A stretch of DNA of 56,537 nucleotides. Origin: Bacteroidota bacterium. GTDB taxonomy: Bacteria > Bacteroidota > Bacteroidia > Chitinophagales > Chitinophagaceae. The DNA lies in contig JAFDXI010000088.1 in assembly GCA_018268035.1 (NCBI GenBank), positions 1 through 56,537 on the forward strand, read 5' to 3'. A model generated the notes under the pieces. That model worked only from the letters and a program-made list of their open reading frames with translations, ran no database searches and had not been told where the DNA came from. Numbering within the stretch: position 1 is the stretch's first letter; each line of letters opens with the position of its first letter. This document shows, piece after piece, positions 35,540 through 51,857 of this stretch. Position numbers and translations under genes: made by a program.

Positions 35540-36891
35540 GTACAGGCTATACAAATAAATCAGTTTCAAAAGGAGTTGACTGGATCACTGTCTGGTTATA
35601 TGTAGCATTGGTTTGTATTGGTGTTATTTGCATTTTCATGGCTGAATATAATCCTGCCACTTTTAACGCTACTTCATTTTTTAAAGGCAATACCAATTAC
35701 AGCAAACAGATATTGTTTTTTGGTATTTGTATTGTTGTTGCCACATTTATTGTTTTAAGTGATAGTAAACTATACCCTGCGTTTGCCAACCTGCTTTATG
35801 TATTTGGAATCATACTCATGCTGTCGGTGTTTGTGTTGGGAAAAGACATCAACGGATCTAAAAGCTGGATTCCTTTAGGTGGTGGTTTTAATCTGCAACC
35901 TGCAGAGATGTGTAAAATATTTGTTGCACTGGCATTGGCAAAATTCCTGTCACAACTTAATATGGATTTCAGGAAGCTGCAATCGCAGGCCATAGCCTGT
36001 GCCATTGCGCTGGCACCTGCAGCGCTTTCCGTCTTGCAACATGAGACCGGCCTTGCATTGGTTTATCTTAGTTTTTTTATAGTGATGTACCGGGAAGGCC
36101 TGCCAGGTATTATCCTGATTATAGGCTTTTCGTTTGGGGCATTGGTGGTGGCCACATTGCTGGTTGAAAAAAATTTACTTGCCATTATCCTTACAGTAAT
36201 TGCAGCTTTGCTGGTATTTATTTTTCGCAGGCAGATTTTTGTGCGTAAAAGATGGAATGTATTAATACTGATAATTTCTGTCTGGGTTTTTTGTGTAGGT
36301 ATTCAGCGGTTTGCAGTGCCTTATATTTTCAACGATGTATTTGCCTGCTACCAAAGCCAGCGCATTTATAGCGCTGTTGGTATGGATTATGATTGCAGTC
36401 AGAATAAACATGCATTGGAAAAAGAAGAGTCAGGTAAAAGTGTTACAAAACCTGATGACTATAATGTAAGGCAAAGTAAGATTGCAATTGGCTCAGGTGG
36501 TTTTTTGGGAAAAGGGTTTCTAAAAGGCACTCAAACCCGTGGCCGCTATGTGCCAGAGCAATCTACTGATTTTATTTTTACATCCCTCAGCGAGGCATTT
36601 GGTTTTGTGGGGTGCTTTATTTTTCTTGGCCTTTATTTTTTATTGTTATACAGGATTATTCATATTGCCGAAAGACAACGAAGCGCTTTCAGCAGGGTGT
36701 ATGCATATTGCGTTGCAAGCATTTTATTTTTTCATATCACAGTGAATGTGTGTATGACTATTGGCCTCTTCCCGGTAATCGGGATTCCATTGCCTATGGT
36801 GAGCTATGGAGGCTCATCACTGCTCACATTTACCATTCTTATTTTTATAATGATAAGACTGGATGCCGACAGGCAAATGGTGTTGCGTTGA
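35536..36891 (+). CDS. rodA: Rod-shape-determining glycosyltransferase RodA
   Basis: SEDS-family peptidoglycan polymerase, an inner-membrane protein of 451 residues with about ten helices. Family marks: the loop KDINGSKSWIPLGGGFNLQPAEMCKI (two parts, about 100-130), the ATGL-like QHETGLALVYL with the conserved region around residue 170, QSTDFIFTSLSEAFGFVG (about 337-354), and the C-terminal IGIPLPMVSYGGSS. There is a longer than usual extracellular insertion (about 270-310, cysteine-containing FACYQSQRIYSAVGMDYDC). It overlaps mrdA by four bases. Its stop codon is one base from the stop of the convergent icmF gene. Confidence 0.95.
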   Translation: MSTGYTNKSVSKGVDWITVWLYVALVCIGVICIFMAEYNPATFNATSFFKGNTNYSKQILFFGICIVVATFIVLSDSKLYPAFANLLYVFGIILMLSVFVLGKDINGSKSWIPLGGGFNLQPAEMCKIFVALALAKFLSQLNMDFRKLQSQAIACAIALAPAALSVLQHETGLALVYLSFFIVMYREGLPGIILIIGFSFGALVVATLLVEKNLLAIILTVIAALLVFIFRRQIFVRKRWNVLILIISVWVFCVGIQRFAVPYIFNDVFACYQSQRIYSAVGMDYDCSQNKHALEKEESGKSVTKPDDYNVRQSKIAIGSGGFLGKGFLKGTQTRGRYVPEQSTDFIFTSLSEAFGFVGCFIFLGLYFLLLYRIIHIAERQRSAFSRVYAYCVASILFFHITVNVCMTIGLFPVIGIPLPMVSYGGSSLLTFTILIFIMIRLDADRQMVLR

Positions 36892-36892
36892 T

Positions 36893-39800
36893 TTACATGC
36901 TGCGGCGGTATTGGCCACCTACTTCATACAAGGCATGAGTGATTTGTCCAAGTGAACAATATTTCACTGTCTCCATCAATTGTTCAAAAATGTTCCCATT
37001 GTTAACAGCAACTTTTTTTAATTGATTTAATGCTTCATCACATTTGTCATTATTGCGTTGTTGAAAAGCAAGCAGGTTGGCAATCTGTTGTTCTTTTTCT
37101 TCTGTTGTTGAACGGATGACTTCACCGGGTATGATTGTCGGTGAGCCTTTCTTATTCAGAAATGTATTTACCCCAATCAATGGCAATTCACCTGTATGTT
37201 TCTGGTGTTCATAATACAGGCTTTCTTCCTGTATCTTGTTGCGTTGATACATTCTTTCCATTGCTCCCAGCACACCGCCCCTTTCTGTGATTCTGTCAAA
37301 CTCTGCCAACACAGCTTCTTCCACCAAATCAGTTAATGCTTCTACTGCAAAACTACCCTGGATAAAGTTTTCAGTTTTTGCAGAACCTAATTCACGGTTG
37401 ATGATTAACTGTATTGCCATTGCACGACGCACACTTTCTTCTGTTGGTGTTGTGATGGCTTCATCATAAGCATTTGTATGTAGTGAATTACAATTGTCAT
37501 AAATAGCATACAAAGCCTGTAATGTAGTGCGGATATCATTGAAATCAATTTCCTGTGCATGCAGTGAACGTCCTGAAGTCTGAATATGATATTTTAATTT
37601 TTGAGAACGGTCATTGGCTTTATATTTATACTTCATTGCCTTTGCCCAAATCCTTCTTGCCACACGCCCAATCACGCTGTATTCTGCATCCATTCCATTG
37701 CTGAAAAAGAATGAAAGGTTAGGTGCAAAATCATCAATGTTCATACCACGACTGAGATAATATTCCACATAAGTAAAACCATTGGCAAGTGTAAATGCAA
37801 GTTGTGTAATCGGGTTGGCGCCGGCTTCTGCAATATGATAACCACTGATGCTGACACTATAAAAATTCCTTACTTTTTTGCTGATGAAATATTCCTGCAC
37901 ATCACCCATTAATTTCAAAGCAAACTCTGTAGAAAAAATACAGGTATTCTGTGCCTGGTCTTCTTTTAAAATATCTGCCTGCACTGTACCTCTTACCTGT
38001 GAAAGTGCAGCATCTTTTAAGATTGCATATACTTCTGCTGGCAACACTTCATCACCACTTAATCCTAAGAGTTGTAGTCCCAGTCCATTATTACCATCAG
38101 GCAATCTTTCAGGTGAGGAAGGATTATAATAAGTGGGTTTATTTTGATGGATGTATTTTTCTTTAAATACTTTTTCAGCACTTTCCCATTGATTTTTTTC
38201 TGTCAGCCATTTCTCACATTGCTGGTCAATAGCTGCATTCATAAAGAATGCAAGAATGATAGGTGCCGGTCCGTTGATGGTCATGCTCACTGAAGTCTTG
38301 GGGTCGCACAAATCAAAACCGCTGTATAATTTTTTTGCATCATCAACTGTTGCAATGCTTACACCACTGTTGCCAATTTTTCCAAAAATATCAGGACGAT
38401 GACCAGGGTCTTCACCATACAATGTAACGCTGTCAAATGCAGTACTCAACCGTTTTGCAGGCTGGTCTAATGAAACATAATGAAAACGTTTATTGGTGCG
38501 CTCCGGACCACCTTCGCCGGCAAACATTCTCGTAGGATCTTCACCTTGTCTTTTCAGTTCAAACACACCTGCTGTATATGGAAATTCGCCCGGCACATTC
38601 TCCTGCAACTGCCATCTTAAAATATCACCACTGTCTTTATATTTCGGTAATACCAGTTTCGGAATTTTGGTGCCACTTAATGATGTAGTTGTGAGTGGTT
38701 GTTTGATGACCTTATCCCGCACTGTGTATTCAAAAAAATCAAGGCTGTATTTTTTTTGTGTTGCTGCCCATTCATCCATCAGTTTTTTACAGTCAGGGTG
38801 AAGTCGTTTTCCATATTCCTTGTATAAAATTCCCAATGCTTCGATGGATTCTTTTGATGTAATTATACTTTCCATCGCACCCTGTATCTGATATAGTTTT
38901 GATGCAATTGCACATTGCTCATCTACCCAGTTATCATAGTGTTTATTGTTGTCAACTATTTCACTTAAATATCTTACCCGTTTAGGCGGAATAATTTGTG
39001 TTTGAGATGTTGTGTCTTTTAAATGATGTACTTCAATTTTTCCAAAATCAACTTTTGTTTTTTCTTCAACAGTCAACATGATTTTTTCAAACAACTCATT
39101 GATGCCTGCATCATTAAATTGTGATGCTATCGTTCCTATCACCGGCATGTCTTCATTCTTTGCACTCCATAAATTATGGTTGCGTTTATATTGTTTACGC
39201 ACATCATGCAAAGCATCCAGCGCACCGGCTTTATCAAATTTGTTGATGCAGACAATATCTGCGTAGTCAAGCATATTGATTTTTTCCAGTTGTGATGCAG
39301 CTCCATATTCCGGTGTCATTACATACATGCTCACATCGCAGTAATCAAGGATTGATGCATCACTCTGGCCAACGCCTGCACTTTCGAGTATGATAAAATC
39401 AAATGCAGCAGCTTTGCATATATTGAGGGCATGGCTTGCTGCAGAACTCAATGCAATATTATCATCTCTTGTAGCCAGGCTGCGCATATAAGCACGTGGA
39501 TTAGAAATAGAATTCATTCTTATCCTGTCACCCAATAAAGCGCCACCTGTTTTTTTGCGGGAAGGGTCAACGGAAATTACTGCAATTGTTTTACCGGGAT
39601 ATGCATTCAGGTAACGACGAACAATCTCATCAGTAACCGAAGATTTACCAGCACCACCGGTACCGGTAATACCGAGTACAGGGATATTACTGTTATTATT
39701 TTTTTCAGGATTTGGATTAAGATCATTTTCTGCATTGGTTATCTTTCTCGCAATAGTCCGAATATCTTTTACTTCATCTAAAGTCATTGGTGTAGAAAAA

Positions 39801-40243
39801 TCAATTTTCACAGGAAGGCAATAATCGCATTGCATGATTACATCTTCAATCATACCTTCCAAACCCATTTTTCTTCCATCATCAGGAGAATAAATCCTGG
39901 TGATACCATAATTATGCAGTTCAGTTATTTCCTGTGGTAAAATAGTGCCGCCACCACCACCAAAAATTTTGATATGGCCACAACCGTTTTCATCCAGCAG
40001 GTCTTTCATGTATTTAAAAAATTCAATGTGGCCTCCCTGGTAAGAAGTAATGGCAATGCCCTGTACATCTTCTTCAATAGCACATTCCACTATTTCTTTT
40101 ACACTACGGTTGTGTCCGAGGTGAATGATTTCTGCTCCCTTGCTTTGCAAAATGCGCCGCATAATATTGATAGCAGCATCATGGCCATCAAATAAAGAAG
40201 CTGCTGTAACAATCCTGACTTTATGGTGCGGTGTATAAGACAT
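36893..40243 (-). CDS. icmF: Fused isobutyryl-CoA mutase/GTPase (IcmF), B12-dependent
   Basis: 1116-residue fusion of all three parts of an adenosylcobalamin acyl-CoA mutase system. First the B12-binding domain with [15 protein letters not shown] (about 16-30) and [11 protein letters not shown]. Then a MeaB-like G3E GTPase chaperone with Walker [14 protein letters not shown] (about 195) and [17 protein letters not shown]. Then the mutase barrel with [36 protein letters not shown] and [14 protein letters not shown]. Methylmalonyl-CoA mutase would show a different substrate loop (TRGVY-x-x-MY), so isobutyryl/butyryl-CoA or a related branched acyl-CoA is the likelier substrate. It is a single gene with its own promoter-like box and no cobalamin riboswitch visible in the leader. 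Confidence 0.95.
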
Positions 40244-40259
40244 AAAAAATGAGTTGCTG

Positions 40260-40289
40260 CAAAAATAATTGATTGCTATGAAAGGTAAA
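40260..40289 (-). promoter_or_regulatory. Candidate promoter of icmF
   Basis: On the minus strand TTTA (40289-40286), an 18-base spacer, then TATTTTTG (40267-40260), an exact TAnnTTTG box 17 bases before the icmF ATG. It overlaps the -33 element of the plus-strand RNA promoter at 40273-40304, so the two would compete for polymerase. Confidence 0.35.
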
Positions 40290-40308
40290 CGATTGTTAGT
40301 TTTGATTA

Positions 40309-40438
40309 AACAATAATAGAATTTATTTATTTCCAGAATTAGAAAACTATACGATGGCTATTCACGTATAAATTATTGTTGAATGTTTCCCTTATTTAAG
40401 ATTATCGCCCTGCATTTTTTAATGCGGGGCTTTTTTTT
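40309..40438 (+). ncRNA. Candidate small RNA or terminated leader upstream of susC
   Basis: About 130 bases on the plus strand with no gene. A promoter-like pair precedes it: TTG (40273-40275), 21 bases, TAGTTTTG (40297-40304, exact TAnnTTTG). The predicted first base is near 40309. AACAATAAT (40309-40317) pairs perfectly with ATTATTGTT (40372-40380), and TATACG (40348-40353) pairs with CGTATA (40365-40370) inside it. An intrinsic terminator follows: 10-base stem 40407-40416/40421-40430 with one G-U pair, a T4 loop, and eight T (40431-40438). A five-codon ORF (MAIHV, 40354-40371) lies in the inner loop. The element ends 148 bases before the susC ATG, so it is either a free sRNA or a premature-termination leader of susC. 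Confidence 0.5.
40407..40438 (+). terminator. Strong intrinsic terminator with no annotated gene upstream
   Basis: GCCCTGCATT, T4 loop, AATGCGGGGC, then T8. It is the best-formed terminator of the window, and it lies in a divergent promoter region where none would be expected for the flanking genes. Confidence 0.8.
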
Positions 40439-40586
40439 GACTATGCACTTTATTACCATTCATCTTTCATATATAATATTATTTTAAGCTATAAATTAAG
40501 TTTAAAAAAAACATAAATGAAAATGGTGTTTAAACGATTAAATTGAATATTTTCATCGAACATTTATTCATTAAATATTATTGTAT

Positions 40587-43500
40587 ATGCAAAAAGCTCC
40601 TCTACTCGTTTTTCTTTTATTCTTTTTTCTGTGTGCTAATGCACAACAAACAATTACCGGTACAATATCAGCCAATGATACCAAACAGCCATTAGATAAA
40701 GCGCTTGTTAAGGAAAAAGGAACAACAAATCAAACGCTGACTGATGCCAGTGGTAATTTTTCAATTACTGTTAAGAGCAGTTCTGTCAGTCTCATCATAT
40801 CATTTATAGGATATGGTGAAAAAGAAGTGCCTGTTAATGGCCAATCTCATATTAATGTTTTGCTGGAACCCGCAAACGGAAATTTAAGTGATGTGGTTGT
40901 AACAGCATTAGGTATTAAGAGGGAAGTGCGTACATTGGGATATGCTTCGCAGGAAGTAAATGCTTCGCAGCTTACTGAATCAAGACAATCAAATCTTGTA
41001 AATGCATTACAAGGTAAAGTGGCAGGTGTAACTATTTCCAGTACAGGTGGAGGCCCCGGTCAGGGTGCCAGTATTTTAATCAGGGGAGTCAATTCTCTTG
41101 ACCCTAATAAAAGCAATCAGCCATTATTTGTGATTGATGGGTTGCCTGTTGACAATAGTACTTTTACTACTGGCACAACAGGTGGCAGAGGTGTTCAGAT
41201 GCCTAACCGTATTGCTGACATTAACCCTGAAGATATTCAAAGCATTAATATTTTAAGAGGCGGTGCTGCAACAGCTTTATATGGTTTGCGTGGTGCTAAT
41301 GGCGTTGTTGTCATTACTACAAAATCAGGACAGGCAGGTACACTGCATGTAAATCTTAATTCTTCTTTTAGCACAGATGTTGTCAATAAAACTCCGGATA
41401 TTCAGTTGAAATATACCCAGGGATACCTGGGTGTATATGACTCAACAAGTTTTTGGCCTGCATGGGGGCCAACTGTTGAAGCAGCAAGGCAAATTGATCC
41501 GACACACCCGGCCAAATTATTCAATAACTGGAAAAATGCTTACCAGACCGGTCACCAGTACAGGAATAATATTACATTTTCAGGAGGCACTGAAAAAGCA
41601 ATTTTTTCTTCTTCACTTTCCTATCAAAGGCAAAATGGTTTGATACCTTTTACCTGGTATCAGGATGTTACTGCAAGAGTGAATGGCCAGTTGAAATTTA
41701 GTGACAAATTCAAAATGGGGACATCAATTTATTATTCAGGAACCAATGGCAATTTTTATGATGCCGACCGTTATAATGAAGAATTAATTTACTGGGCTCC
41801 AAGATGGGATGTAATGGATTATATAAAACCTGATGGTACAGAAAAAACCTATGGCAATGGCAATCCTGTTTATTATGCAGCAACAAATAAGTTCAGTTCA
41901 AAAGTGAATCATGTAACTGGTAATGTCAATTTCACTTACTCACCACTAAAATGGCTGACAGCAACATATTTGTTAGGTATGGATGAATATGGTGATGCAA
42001 GGACTGCAACTGCTCCCGGGCCAAAAGGTGTGCCAGGTGAAATAATTGCATCAGATAACGATCTGGGATTTGTGCATGAGTACCAGCTTAATTACAGGCA
42101 AATAAATTCTAACCTGTTGCTTACTTTTGATCATACCTGGGGTGATAAATTTCAAACCACTTTAAGAATAGGTAATGATATTCTTGACAGGACATTAAAG
42201 CGTATCAGCGCTGAAGGTGATGAACTGGATGTTTATAATCTTTTTGCTCTGAGCAATGCTAAAGTTGTTTCAATCAATTCTTATCAACAGAACTATAGAA
42301 TTGTCGGCGCTTATGGTGATCTCACACTGGGTTATGATAATTATCTCTATTTGAATTTAACCGGAAGAAATGACTGGACATCAAGCCTTGAAGCAGCTAA
42401 TCGTTCTTTCTTTTATCCATCTGCGAGCCTGAGTTATATTTTCTCAGAAAGTTTGAAAATGCCTTCCTGGATAAACTATGGTAAGTTGAGATTATCAATT
42501 GCAGGCATTGGTAAAGATGCAGATCCTTATAGCACCAGCATTACGTATTCACCGGCATTTGATGCACCTGTAAACGGTGTGATTGGTTGGTCAAGGGATA
42601 ATGCAGCGGGTGTTGCAGATCTGCAGCCTGAAAGAACTACAACTTTTGAAGGTGGTTTCGATCTTGGATTTATAAAAAACAGGATTGCATTCAATTTTAC
42701 TTTATATAAATCAAAAAGTAAAGACCAGATTATTCCTGTTTCAACAGCGCCTTCCACAGGTTTCACCACTATTACTTTAAATGCTGGTGAAATTGAGAAT
42801 AAAGGCATCGAAGCAACTTTAAAAGTTACGCCAATCAAATCAGCAGATTTTAATTGGGATGTTACAATAAACTTCTCCGCCAATAAGAATAGAATTATAT
42901 CTATTTATGGTGGCTTATCAGAAATTGTAATAGGAAGTCAGTATGGCTATTCTAATTCAAGTGTGACTATGAAATATGTGCCCGGGCAATCAGTTGGTGA
43001 CATTTATGGTACACCATGGACGAGATACCAGGATGATAAGAGCACATTGTATTCTGATAAGAGCTTGCCTTTATTAATCGGCTCTAATGGTTTTCCTGTT
43101 TTAACACCAACCTCCAATCAAAAAATATTGGGGAATGCTTACCCGAAATGGATAGGTAGTATCGGGAATTCATTTACCTATAAAAACTGGAACTTGTATT
43201 TCCTCTGGGATTTTAGAGAAGGCCTGAAAAAATATGACCAGTTCTCCAATTTTATGGCAGCATTTGGAATATCAAAAATCACTGAAAACAGGGATCAGAC
43301 AATTGTGTTTGATGGTGTTTTGGCAGATGGTACGCCTAATACAAAATCTGTTTATTTAGGACAAGGTGTAGGCCCTGATGGAGTTGATTATGGTGCAGGT
43401 TATTACAGGAATGTTTATAGGGGCATCTCAGAAAATTTTGTTGAGGATGCATCATGGGTAAGATTACGTTCTGCTACATTATCTTATAGTTTGCCTGCAA

Positions 43501-43694
43501 CTGTTTTGAAAAATTCATTTGTGAAAAGTCTCAGTCTGGCATTTACCGGTAACAATTTATTATTGTTTACCAAGTATAAAGGATTTGATCCTGAATCAAG
43601 TTCTGCGATTTCAGGTAGCAATGTAAATGGATTTGCAGGTTTTACATACCCTGCTCTTCGCAGCTATATCCTTTCATTAAATGTTGGCTTCTAA
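40587..43694 (+). CDS. SusC/RagA family TonB-linked outer membrane protein (no STN domain)
   Basis: 1035-residue outer membrane importer. Signal peptide (1-20, ending ANAQ), carboxypeptidase-regulatory-like domain (about 22-95: TGTISANDTKQPLDKALV, DASGNFSITV), then the plug with VVVTALGIKREVRTLGYASQ, GQGASILIRGVNSL, QPLFVIDGLPVDNS and ATALYGLRGANGVVVITTKSG, and a 22-strand-type barrel ending SYILSLNVGF. Lacking an STN domain, it should not signal to a FecR, and no sigma/anti-sigma genes are nearby, so control must lie elsewhere, possibly through the structured RNA upstream. The ATG at 40587 is used rather than a TTG two codons earlier. Imported substrate unknown. Confidence 0.96.
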   Translation: MQKAPLLVFLLFFFLCANAQQTITGTISANDTKQPLDKALVKEKGTTNQTLTDASGNFSITVKSSSVSLIISFIGYGEKEVPVNGQSHINVLLEPANGNLSDVVVTALGIKREVRTLGYASQEVNASQLTESRQSNLVNALQGKVAGVTISSTGGGPGQGASILIRGVNSLDPNKSNQPLFVIDGLPVDNSTFTTGTTGGRGVQMPNRIADINPEDIQSINILRGGAATALYGLRGANGVVVITTKSGQAGTLHVNLNSSFSTDVVNKTPDIQLKYTQGYLGVYDSTSFWPAWGPTVEAARQIDPTHPAKLFNNWKNAYQTGHQYRNNITFSGGTEKAIFSSSLSYQRQNGLIPFTWYQDVTARVNGQLKFSDKFKMGTSIYYSGTNGNFYDADRYNEELIYWAPRWDVMDYIKPDGTEKTYGNGNPVYYAATNKFSSKVNHVTGNVNFTYSPLKWLTATYLLGMDEYGDARTATAPGPKGVPGEIIASDNDLGFVHEYQLNYRQINSNLLLTFDHTWGDKFQTTLRIGNDILDRTLKRISAEGDELDVYNLFALSNAKVVSINSYQQNYRIVGAYGDLTLGYDNYLYLNLTGRNDWTSSLEAANRSFFYPSASLSYIFSESLKMPSWINYGKLRLSIAGIGKDADPYSTSITYSPAFDAPVNGVIGWSRDNAAGVADLQPERTTTFEGGFDLGFIKNRIAFNFTLYKSKSKDQIIPVSTAPSTGFTTITLNAGEIENKGIEATLKVTPIKSADFNWDVTINFSANKNRIISIYGGLSEIVIGSQYGYSNSSVTMKYVPGQSVGDIYGTPWTRYQDDKSTLYSDKSLPLLIGSNGFPVLTPTSNQKILGNAYPKWIGSIGNSFTYKNWNLYFLWDFREGLKKYDQFSNFMAAFGISKITENRDQTIVFDGVLADGTPNTKSVYLGQGVGPDGVDYGAGYYRNVYRGISENFVEDASWVRLRSATLSYSLPATVLKNSFVKSLSLAFTGNNLLLFTKYKGFDPESSSAISGSNVNGFAGFTYPALRSYILSLNVGF

Positions 43695-43804
43695 AATTTT
43701 CTAAATGAATCGTCCATTAAAATTTTCAAATAATATTTCAATCATCAATGATGGAATTTGTTTAGTCAATTTCAAATGGCTTTTTAATAAATAAAAAAAG
43801 ATTT

Positions 43805-45214
43805 ATGAAAAAAATAATCACGACTTTTTCAATACTGGTATTTTGTTTGGCAGTTTTCAGCAGTTGCAAAAAATACCTGGACATTAATCAGAATCCGAAT
43901 TCTGCAACTGAAGCGCCAATCTCAGGGTTATTGGCAAATACAACTTATAATACTGCTTATAATGTTTTTAATGCCAGTAATATTACATCCTATTATGTGC
44001 AATACCTGTCTTCACCCAATCCAGGCAGCGATATTGATATCTATAATAATATTGATCCAAGCGGTACATGGAGTGGGTTTTATAATATCATGACCGACCT
44101 GCATGATATGAAGGCTTTAGCTGTAACAAAGGGTTCAAATGCTTATGAAGGTGTAGCAGATATTTTAATGGCTTTGCATTTGAATATGGCAAGCAATTTA
44201 TGGGGAGATGTTCCATATTCACAATCATTTATGGGTGTATCAAATCTGACACCGGTATTCGATAATCAACAGGATGTTTATGATACGGCAATGAAACTTT
44301 TAGATGAAGGTATTGCTGCCCTGGGAGTCACTGATCCTACCGGAGGTTTAGATGAGAACAGTGATTTTATCCATGCAGGCAGTGTTACCGCATGGATAAA
44401 AACTGCTCATGCTTTAAAAGCAAGAATGCTGACACAGGTTTCCAAAACGGGCGATTATAATGCTGATGCCGTATTAACAGAATTAGCAGCAGCATATACA
44501 TCAAACGATGATGATGCACAGGTATCTATGTTTGAAAACCGCAACCCCTGGGCACAAGTGGCAGTCAACAATGCAGGTTTGGATTTAGATGGATGGCTCT
44601 CATCTTATTTTGTCAATGCAGCAAATGGTGCAACATATAGTGTTTTCGATCCACGCCTTCCTTTGATAACTGATACTACTCAATATGGTGATTATCGTGG
44701 CACACCAAACGGGCAGGGGAGAACCGGAACAGGTACTGAAAATAAAGAATGTTATTTGTCTGTTGGCGGATGGTATTCAAGTGATAATTCTCCTTTACAA
44801 ATTATCACTTATGTGGAATGTTTGTTTATGAAAGCAGAAGCAGAATTAAGAAATAGCGATAATGATGCAGCTTATACCGATTATTTGAATGCTATCACTT
44901 TCAACATGCAGAAAATGGGTGTTGCAGATACAGCCATTACCCGATATACATCTGATCCTGCTGTTGCAGTTGGTTCTGCTAACCTGACTTTGCAATTAAT
45001 CATGAAGGAAAAATATATTGGTTGTTTTTTAAGCCCGGTTACATGGGATGATATGCGGCGTTTTGATTATAACTATGTTGATTTTGAATTACCGGTGGGT
45101 TGTGTGTTGGGGGAATTTATCCGCAGGACAAGTTACCCAACTGTTGAGATTTCTGCCAACGGTGGCAATGTGCCGGATGTTACATTAACCGACCATTTAT
45201 GGTGGGATCAATAA
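43805..45214 (+). CDS. SusD/RagB family nutrient-binding outer membrane lipoprotein (SusD-like 2 type)
   Basis: 469-residue lipoprotein with lipobox FSSC (Cys21) and the start KKYLDINQNPNSAT, typical of the second SusD subgroup. Other marks are LHLNMASNLWGDVPYSQSF (the WGDVPY element), SGFYNIMTDLHDM, CLFMKAEAELR and the C-terminal MKEKYIGCFLSPVTWDDMRRF with RRTSYPTVEISANGGNVPD. It partners the preceding SusC (110-base gap) as the ligand-binding lid. It is only distantly like the other SusD in this window, so the two loci probably take up different compounds. A strong hairpin follows the stop. Confidence 0.95.
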   Translation: MKKIITTFSILVFCLAVFSSCKKYLDINQNPNSATEAPISGLLANTTYNTAYNVFNASNITSYYVQYLSSPNPGSDIDIYNNIDPSGTWSGFYNIMTDLHDMKALAVTKGSNAYEGVADILMALHLNMASNLWGDVPYSQSFMGVSNLTPVFDNQQDVYDTAMKLLDEGIAALGVTDPTGGLDENSDFIHAGSVTAWIKTAHALKARMLTQVSKTGDYNADAVLTELAAAYTSNDDDAQVSMFENRNPWAQVAVNNAGLDLDGWLSSYFVNAANGATYSVFDPRLPLITDTTQYGDYRGTPNGQGRTGTGTENKECYLSVGGWYSSDNSPLQIITYVECLFMKAEAELRNSDNDAAYTDYLNAITFNMQKMGVADTAITRYTSDPAVAVGSANLTLQLIMKEKYIGCFLSPVTWDDMRRFDYNYVDFELPVGCVLGEFIRRTSYPTVEISANGGNVPDVTLTDHLWWDQ

Positions 45215-45239
45215 CAAGATTAAATTGATTTAAACAAAT

Positions 45240-45270
45240 AACGCTACTGGGAACAGTAGCGTTTTGTTTG
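45240..45270. terminator. Bidirectional intrinsic terminator between susD and gltD
   Basis: ACGCTACTG (45241-45249), GGAA loop, CAGTAGCGT (45254-45262): a perfect 9-base stem extended by an A-T pair. It is followed by TTTGTTTG on the plus strand and TATTTGTTT on the minus strand, between convergent genes. Confidence 0.88.
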
Positions 45271-45289
45271 TAGGGTCATTGTTAAATGC

Positions 45290-46759
45290 CTAACTGTTTG
45301 TCAAAAATTCATCTACCGCTTTTGCACATTCACGGCCTTCATTAATAGCCCACACTACCAATGACTGCCCACGGCGCATATCACCGGTAGCAAATATTTT
45401 TTCCTGATTTGTTTTATAATTTTTGTTATTCGCTGCTACATTTTTTCTATCAGTTAATTCAATATTCAAATCGTTCAACATGCCTTCAAATTGTGGATTC
45501 AAAAATCCCATAGCCAGTAACACAAGTTCACAGGGTAATTCTGTTTCTGTTCCGGGTATTTCTGCAAAACCGGCAGGCCTGTCATCAACACCTTTTTGCC
45601 ATTGAAGCTTCACCACTTTTAGTGCACACAGGTTGCCGTTTTCATCCTTCAAAAATTCTTTACTGGCAATTGCCCATTCCCTTTCACTGCCTTCTTCATG
45701 TGATGAAGTTGTTTTTAATATCATGGGATATGTAGGCCAGGGCATATAAGGCGTTCTTGATTTGGGTGGTTGCGGCAATAACTCAATTTGAGTAACAGAT
45801 TTTGCGCCCTGCCTGTTTGATGTACCAATGCAATCACTGCCGGTATCGCCACCACCAATCACAATTACATTCTTATTAAAAGCATTGATGATTTCAGGAT
45901 ATAAGTTGCTTTCTTTTGCTGCTATATCTGTTGGTAAAATTGGATTAAGGCCTGCATTTAGTTTATTCTGTTGTTTTAAAAATTCCATTGCAAAATGAAT
46001 ACCTTTCAATTCCCTTCCCGGTACTGGCAAATCTCTTGGAATAGTGGAACCGCCTGCCAGAACAATTGCATCATAATTTTCCAATAACTCCTGCACAGGT
46101 ACATTAACGCCAACATTAGAATTGCACCTGAATTCAATACCTTCTTCCCTTAATACTTCAAGCCTTCTGTCTATGACCCATTTCTCCAGTTTAAAATCAG
46201 GGATGCCATAACGCAACAAACCACCAGGTGCATCATCTCTTTCAAAAACCGTAACCAAATGTCCTGCATAATTTAATTGTGCAGCAGCAGCCAACCCTGA
46301 TGGGCCTGAACCTATCACTGCTACTTTTTTACCACTGCGAACATTGATTTTTTTAGGTTGCACAAAACCATTTTCAAAAGCAATTTCAATGATATGCTTT
46401 TCTATTTCTTCAATTGTTACAGGGGATTGATTGATGCCTAACACGCAGGCATGCTCACAAGGTGCAGGGCAAATACGTCCGGTGAATTCCGGAAAATTAT
46501 TGGTTGAGGTTAATATCTCATAAGCTTCTTTCCAACTCTTCCTGTAAACCGCATCATTAAATTCAGGAATGATGTTGCCCAAAGGACAGCCGCTTTGACA
46601 AAACGGTACACCACAATCCATACATCGTGCGGCCTGGTGATTGAGTTCATCTGCAGCAAACCTGTGTACAAATTCATTATAATTTTTTATTCTTACCTGC
46701 ACGGGTTCCTTCTCCGGAACCACCCTGTCAAATTCTAAAAACCCCGTTAGTTTACCCAT
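45290..46759 (-). CDS. gltD: Glutamate synthase small subunit
   Basis: 489-residue flavoprotein that passes electrons from NAD(P)H to the large subunit for ammonia assimilation (GS-GOGAT). N-terminal cysteine clusters for [4Fe-4S] centres: Cys46, Cys49, Cys54, Cys58 (RCMDCGVPFCQSGCP), and Cys97, Cys101, Cys105 (ICPAPCEHAC). FAD-binding VIGSGPSGLAAAAQL (about 149-163) and NAD(P)H-binding VIVIGGGDTGSDC (about 297) follow. The C-terminal FATGDMRRGQSLVVWAINEG is the usual FAD-contact end. It lies 43 bases downstream of gltB, in one operon. Confidence 0.97.
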   Translation of the reverse strand: MGKLTGFLEFDRVVPEKEPVQVRIKNYNEFVHRFAADELNHQAARCMDCGVPFCQSGCPLGNIIPEFNDAVYRKSWKEAYEILTSTNNFPEFTGRICPAPCEHACVLGINQSPVTIEEIEKHIIEIAFENGFVQPKKINVRSGKKVAVIGSGPSGLAAAAQLNYAGHLVTVFERDDAPGGLLRYGIPDFKLEKWVIDRRLEVLREEGIEFRCNSNVGVNVPVQELLENYDAIVLAGGSTIPRDLPVPGRELKGIHFAMEFLKQQNKLNAGLNPILPTDIAAKESNLYPEIINAFNKNVIVIGGGDTGSDCIGTSNRQGAKSVTQIELLPQPPKSRTPYMPWPTYPMILKTTSSHEEGSEREWAIASKEFLKDENGNLCALKVVKLQWQKGVDDRPAGFAEIPGTETELPCELVLLAMGFLNPQFEGMLNDLNIELTDRKNVAANNKNYKTNQEKIFATGDMRRGQSLVVWAINEGRECAKAVDEFLTNS

Positions 46760-46802
46760 TGAATTTTTATATTTTAAATTCTAATTTTTTATTCTGAAAT
46801 AT

Positions 46803-51323: not shown

Positions 51324-51857
51324 TTTGCAACACGTTTGTTTTAATGTCTATAAAATTTATTAATTGAAAGAACTCACACAAAAAATCAATTGTGAATTCT
51401 ATGAATTGCTGATCATCTTTGATTTAGTTCAAAAAAATATAAGCAATTCTATTTCCAGATAGCGAGCAAGGTTTTCAAAATAGTAAATTGTTTTAATAAC
51501 AATTGTTAGTTTGGCAAATAAATTCTTCACACGCTATAATTACTTGTCTAATTTATTTCATGACTGTGTTGAAAGACAATAAAAAGTTTAATTTCCTTAC
51601 TTGTATTTGATAAATTATATTGAAAAAAAAACTTCAGAAGGGAAAAACAGTAGCCAATATTAATGCAGGTGGTCATTGTTTTCAACTATGACATTTTTTA
51701 TCAAAATGATGATAACATTAAATTACATTTTTTAAACGGATCGATCTAAATATGTCTCTGGCAATTCAGGATAACAGGGCATAAACACAATTCATCCTGC
51801 AATCAATTATTATTAACTAAAATTGCATTTCAAAAAAACATTTTAAACAACTGTAAA
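51324..51857. other. Long divergent intergenic region upstream of gltB and the FAH-family gene
   Basis: 534 AT-rich bases without an ORF of note, RNA gene or terminator. The one clear structure is AATTGTT-TTAAT-AACAATT (51486-51504), overlapped by AACAATTGTT (51498-51507), which gives a direct repeat of AATTGTT at a 15-base step. It is 163 bases from gltB and 354 from the other gene. A T/A-rich TATAAT-like sequence occurs at 51536. No exact TAnnTTTG box with a -33 partner was found, although TTAGTTTG (51506-51513) differs from it by one base. Confidence 0.4.

Follow-up and report, generated by a model that had tools for sequence, protein, structure and literature searches.

The icmF and susC intergenic region

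In the window, meaning the whole stretch of 56,537 nucleotides analyzed here, icmF and a susC homologue face away from each other across an intergenic region of 343 bp (Table 1). An initial annotation had described, on the susC strand of this region, an orphan structured RNA of about 130 nt with its own promoter and terminator. The sequence elements behind that description (TTG, a 21-base spacer, TAnnTTTG, stems of 9 and 6 bp and a 10-bp U8-tailed terminator) are all present where they were placed, and no gene on the same strand lies immediately upstream of the terminator. At its other end, icmF (minus strand, lower end 36893) converges with a rodA-like gene (plus strand, ending at 36891); with a single base between them, there is no room for a terminator. 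The names rodA, gltD, gltB and transposase are provisional assignments.

Table 1. Features of the icmF/susC locus and sites of the motif CTAACNNNNGTTA in the same genome
Feature	Position	Strand	Remarks
icmF	36893..40243	-	Fused acyl-CoA mutase: B12-binding, MeaB GTPase and mutase domains (domain matches)
icmF -7 box, TAnnTTTG (TATTTTTG)	40260..40267	-	Starts 24 bases before ATG; recurs in relatives
Proposed promoter: TTG, N21, TAGTTTTG	40273..40304	+	Overlaps icmF operator candidate
Conserved inverted repeat CTAACAATCGTTTA (icmF strand)	40286..40299	-	Candidate PaaR/TetR-like icmF operator
Putative short non-coding transcript body	40309..40406	+	9-bp and 6-bp stems, not beyond chance; no convincing homologue
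Intrinsic terminator	40407..40438	+	10-bp stem, TTTT loop, T8 tail
susC homologue	40587..43694	+	CarbopepD_reg_2, TonB plug; no STN match
susD homologue	43805..45214	+	SusD-like_2
CTAACNNNNGTTA site	51497-51509 (window)		Between gltB (174 bp) and fumarylacetoacetate hydrolase (348 bp)
CTAACNNNNGTTA site			8 bp before acyl-CoA dehydrogenase
CTAACNNNNGTTA site			24 bp before thiolase
CTAACNNNNGTTA site			41 bp before paaA
CTAACNNNNGTTA site			17 bp before 4-hydroxyphenylpyruvate dioxygenase-like (hppD-like) gene
CTAACNNNNGTTA site			31 bp before M13 peptidase
CTAACNNNNGTTA site			175 bp before TetR-family ORF
CTAACNNNNGTTA site			165 bp before DAHP synthase

The hairpin and U run at 40407-40438 form a genuine intrinsic terminator: the stable, G+C-rich stem and its tail exceed chance expectation. 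Its arms (40407-40416 and 40421-40430) make 10 pairs, six of them G-C and one G-U, followed by T8 at 40431-40438, with a hairpin energy of -16.3 kcal/mol. None of 2000 shuffles of the 343-bp region produced a comparable structure (at least 8 bp, at least 5 G-C pairs, T5), which upholds the terminator of the initial annotation. A lenient scan of 36800-46800 returned seven sites, including that at 40407, versus 7.2 expected, and a strict scan of the whole window returned three (31241, 40407 and 17897). The terminator class GCGGGGCTTTTT occurs at five places in the genome, window included, and its reversed pattern at none. One of these starts at position 1501 of L197, just 3' of a tRNA-Arg gene ending at 1483. 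Because the class recurs at five places, one of them directly after tRNA-Arg, the window terminator probably works. An exact 20-mer of the window terminator is also present in a hairpin that lies near a putative transposase fragment, recognized by eye, of which there are two similar copies (L003, 1501-1520; L004, 761-780). This hairpin was rejected as the source of the terminator since the match covers just 20 bases and the class is found at other places too.

The sequence preceding the terminator behaves differently in folding comparisons. The 9-bp stem pairs AACAATAAT (40309-40317) with ATTATTGTT (40372-40380), and the nested stem pairs TATACG (40348-40353) with CGTATA (40365-40370). A five-codon ORF, MAIHV, runs from ATG at 40354 to TAA at 40371; it is present as annotated, except that it extends beyond the loop (40354-40364) into the 3' arm of the nested stem. 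The folding z score is -2.74 for the whole element, which 2 of 200 shuffles match, but -0.51 for the 5' domain taken by itself (40305-40400), where 60 of 200 shuffles are equally or more stable. Thus, the whole-element score is carried by the terminator, and the 5' domain shows no fold stability beyond its shuffles. Among 500 shuffles of the 5' domain, a perfect inverted repeat of at least 9 bp arose in 8.6% and an ATG followed by three to eight codons and a stop in 36%.

The proposed promoter comprises TTG at 40273-40275 and, after the 21-base spacer, TAGTTTTG at 40297-40304. A promoter consensus of TAnnTTTG with TTTG near -33 is given in PMC7366714. Of 5000 intergenic shuffles, 7.2% contained TTG-N19-23-TAnnTTTG on one strand and 1.5% contained the pair at a spacing of exactly N21. 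TAnnTTTG by itself appeared, again on one strand, in 43.6% of shuffles of this region. Five such pairs occur in the window, four of them inside ORFs of 334-846 aa; the pair at 40273-40304 alone does not fall within an ORF of at least 250 aa, a small point for the initial annotation. The proposed promoter overlaps the icmF operator candidate, the last three bases of the inverted repeat at 40286-40299 being shared with the proposed -7 box. On the plus-strand side, an exact TAnnTTTG within 150 bp of icmF is absent in all five other congeners. Five of 23 wider relatives (L057, L061, L066, L068 and L073) have TAnnTTTG facing away from icmF 74-82 bp out, unlike the window, where it lies 54 bp out. 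A sigma-70-type scan of 36800-46800 gave 38 promoter-like sites versus 37.3 expected, and no susC promoter was identified 3' of the terminator.

The initial annotation had not recognized the structure as a known family, and Rfam returned no match in the window at the gathering score. At a relaxed E-value, 12 sub-threshold matches fell within 40200-40600 (best E 0.008), and of three relaxed alignments the first two covered chiefly the terminator and the flank upstream of it. The 6S-Flavo model gave one match below cut-off (E 7.24) in the window's own genome and none over cut-off in 14 control genomes. Among the titles and opening parts of abstracts of the literature matches listed, none described the window element itself.

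Distribution among relatives

Eight genomes of the genus were compared. An icmF orthologue with at least 90% identity over the query is present in six, including the window's own, and the two congeners lacking it are 66-67% complete. The same susC was found to adjoin icmF only in congener G003, where the N-terminal 250 aa of SusC are 71% identical, and gene order continues there as in the window with susD-, gltD- and gltB-like genes (by appearance). Congener G004 has another susC beside icmF (45%). Global alignments of the window and G003 gaps were unstable across methods and gap costs; therefore, we relied on block identity and shuffles. The G003 gap measures 180 bp, 163 bp less than that of the window. 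Next to icmF, 47 of the first 60 positions match, whereas alignment of the RNA part (40305-40438) with what is left of the G003 gap does not outscore shuffled sequence, 443 of 500 shuffles equalling or exceeding it. Similarity to that gap is weak for the distal part (40439-40586), whose score is reached by 43 of 500 shuffles. The remaining 120 bases of the G003 gap fold like shuffles (z 0.29). The initial annotation had itself named orthologous regions that keep neither the stems nor the terminator as evidence against it, and the G003 gap, from the one syntenic relative found, contains no terminator and none of the four stem arms. Absence of the RNA in G003 could be loss, as the comparison involves one genome with the above SusC identity.

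We also searched more widely for the element. Relatives of susC were drawn from 244 sampled genomes of a larger family and from a second set of loci; 16 upstream regions were read, and 14 entered a terminator scan, the window included in both counts. A looser scan found no terminator upstream of the 12 relatives other than G003. In a DNA search of 59 genomes, including the window's own, the window itself was the only convincing match. Weak matches (E at most 1) occurred in 57 of the 59, the best non-self ones being 3.7e-4 in the same genome (L002, 53 query bases) and 7.8e-4 in G005 (L009, 29 bases). As homologues these weak matches were rejected: 12 of their loci, read by eye, looked unrelated in context, and L017 is apparently the start of a coding sequence. 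The window's genome holds one strong copy and showed no multicopy paralogues, the 53-base match being the next best. The covariance search that the initial annotation proposed was run with a single-sequence model of 92 positions, and at E at most 1 this matched only the window itself in the 59 genomes, under strict filters that lose weak matches. No RNA homologues with covariation emerged among these genomes. Phage and plasmid records gave no match at E at most 0.01, and a 26-base exact pattern was absent from viral contigs. Together with the chance-level fold of the body and the G003 gap, these results do not bear out a conserved structured RNA.

Two of the loci read by eye showed a feature of their own. 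In G001 (L012, about 1480-1530), a tandem direct repeat containing GGGAAACATTAAACAATTTAAA lies just 5' of a start codon, and G003 carries one copy of this repeat at what by eye is apparently the same locus (L014).

The icmF control region and a candidate catabolic regulon

The bases retained next to icmF make up the control region of that gene, and the conserved inverted repeat there lies upstream of the icmF -7 box at a distance of 18 bp. From 86 icmF upstream regions, 29 were taken as the main group (the window, five congeners and L052-L074); L052, from Parafilimonas terrae, is the same DNA as L040 from congener G005, leaving 28 distinct rows. CTAAC-N4-GTTAG with at least 8 of 10 bases precedes icmF in 21 of the 29 (20 of 28 distinct rows) where shuffles predict 1.85 of 29. 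The repeat ends 32-49 bp before the icmF ATG in 19 of these 21, and 18 of the 21 have a TAnnTTTG between repeat and gene on the strand of icmF. The repeat of congener G004 (L042) scores only 6. The other 57 upstream regions (L075-L131) include 10 at 8 or more of 10, versus 2.95 expected. Because the gene flanking icmF, judged by eye, differs among several relatives, conservation of the repeat belongs to icmF and not to susC.

The motif CTAACNNNNGTTA occurs at 10 places in the window's own genome, eight outside ORFs (Table 1) and two inside. It gave 14 oriented matches versus 108 for the reversed pattern, which is no matched control for stop codons. The motif contains TAA/TTA, and these stop codons may explain its rarity and, in part, its position between genes. 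The perfect 14-mer occurs four times, equal to its reversed control, and three of the four control sites are inside ORFs. Since stop trinucleotides favor intergenic placing, the operator argument rests on functional coherence and on conservation before icmF. On these grounds, 40286-40299 is a candidate PaaR/TetR-like operator of icmF, the nature of the regulator being suggested by the resemblance of the site. As a by-product, the analysis yields a candidate catabolic regulon for this group of Chitinophagaceae, comprising icmF, acyl-CoA dehydrogenase, thiolase, paaA and the hppD-like gene. Among the matches listed in open-licence literature, we found no description of a PaaR-like regulon of Bacteroidota.

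Interpretation and comparison with known systems

By sequence, the icmF/susC gap holds a terminator and a conserved inverted repeat, and the proposed RNA was not found in the relatives searched. The explanation we prefer, to which we give about even weight, is that a lineage-specific terminator in the gap ends a short plus-strand non-coding RNA while the conserved control element belongs to icmF. Plus-strand transcription would begin in or near the icmF control region, near 40309, and would be stopped by the terminator to yield a non-coding RNA of about 130 nt with no selected fold, a product that need not have a function. The terminator would thereby separate the icmF control region from susC, which would presumably start its own transcription further down. 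A TetR-type (PaaR-like) regulator bound at 40286-40299 would control icmF within an acyl-CoA/aromatic catabolic regulon. The element is probably an ordinary, lineage-specific feature, given that the RNA was not found in the relatives searched, that its fold is at chance level and that its proposed promoter overlaps a conserved icmF control site. It counts against the preferred explanation that an sRNA gene standing on its own would likewise show a strong terminator without an upstream gene.

A functional, lineage-specific RNA of about 130 nt acting in trans, in which a largely unstructured 5' part resembling that of FopS/GibS pairs with target mRNAs ahead of the terminator, is a possible but unsupported reading, and we consider it doubtful. 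The promoter-like pair, the sole intergenic one of five in the window, and the strong terminator speak for such an RNA, and the chance-level fold before the terminator fits the single-stranded 5' stretch of FopS described in PMC11697453. Intergenic RNAs with a transcription start site and a terminator are treated as high-confidence sRNAs in Bacteroides thetaiotaomicron, according to PMC7366714. Set against these points are the lack of a convincing paralogue or homologue in the genomes searched, the frequency of the promoter pair in shuffles and a crude duplex model in which pairing with start regions was not beyond chance: -22.8 kcal/mol for susC (33 of 300 shuffles as good), with 239 of 300 as good for icmF and 119 of 300 for susD. 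It is unlikely that the terminator is instead an orphan, left over from a gene since lost or from a small insertion and now without function. This would account for a stretch with no counterpart in the shorter syntenic G003 gap and for the conservation not found, and the exact 20-mer common to the hairpin near the two putative transposase-fragment copies points the same way; yet no decayed gene is seen, the terminator is intact, the 20-mer may merely reflect a common terminator type, and phage and plasmid records have no match at the threshold given above.

We regard as improbable an attenuating susC leader, also advanced in the initial annotation, in which transcripts from 40309 stop at 40438 unless a signal allows readthrough. 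The element does lie on the susC strand, its terminator ends 148 bases before the susC ATG, and the five-codon ORF precedes it. However, no antiterminator was identified in the leader: its best complements match 5 of 10 bases of the 5' arm and 6 of 10 of the 3' arm, and a switch is unlikely because no leader sequence competes well for either. Moreover, no Rfam aptamer scores over cut-off, the terminator is absent upstream of the G003 orthologue and the 12 other susC relatives scanned, and a short ORF arises readily in shuffles. The initial annotation had also argued that an RNA-level switch would fill a gap in a SusC without STN/FecR control. The SusC indeed has no STN match, but absence of STN is common among SusC proteins, so no gap needing RNA control is left. 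Equally improbable is a young, lineage-specific sRNA whose promoter sits inside the icmF operator, with a PaaR-like regulator controlling both icmF and a divergent RNA that adjusts SusCD; if true, it would link acyl-CoA catabolism to nutrient uptake. The RNA finding matters little unless expression is shown. The locus also carries a caution, as a T-rich conserved operator, a chance fold and a real terminator together read as a complete sRNA gene.

Compared with intrinsic (Rho-independent) terminators in general, that of the window has the mismatch-free G+C-rich stem (one G-U), short loop and T8, and its sequence class is that of other terminator-like sites of this genome; it differs in having no same-strand gene immediately upstream. 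DonS-type RNAs, as presented in PMC7366714, are cis-antisense and divergent to susC. The candidate RNA is likewise short and beside susC, but is encoded on the same strand and is not antisense. According to PMC11697453, FopS sRNAs form a conserved family of 14 members that have a seed in common; they consist of a 5' stretch that is single-stranded, followed by a terminator. The window element resembles FopS/GibS of Bacteroides in ending at a terminator, in having a body without marked fold and in lying near susC, whereas FopS is conserved and multicopy and the searches found the window element neither paralogue nor homologue. For the icmF site, the comparison is with the operator consensus of PaaR (TTHA0973) from Thermus thermophilus, given as CNAACGNNCGTTNG in PMC6651687. 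The window repeat shares its layout, a 14-bp inverted repeat. Its outer parts, CTAAC...GTTA, are found again ahead of paaA and further catabolic genes as well as icmF in relatives, but the inner CG pairs specified for Thermus are kept inconsistently, and the icmF site of the window matches 8 of 10 specified bases.
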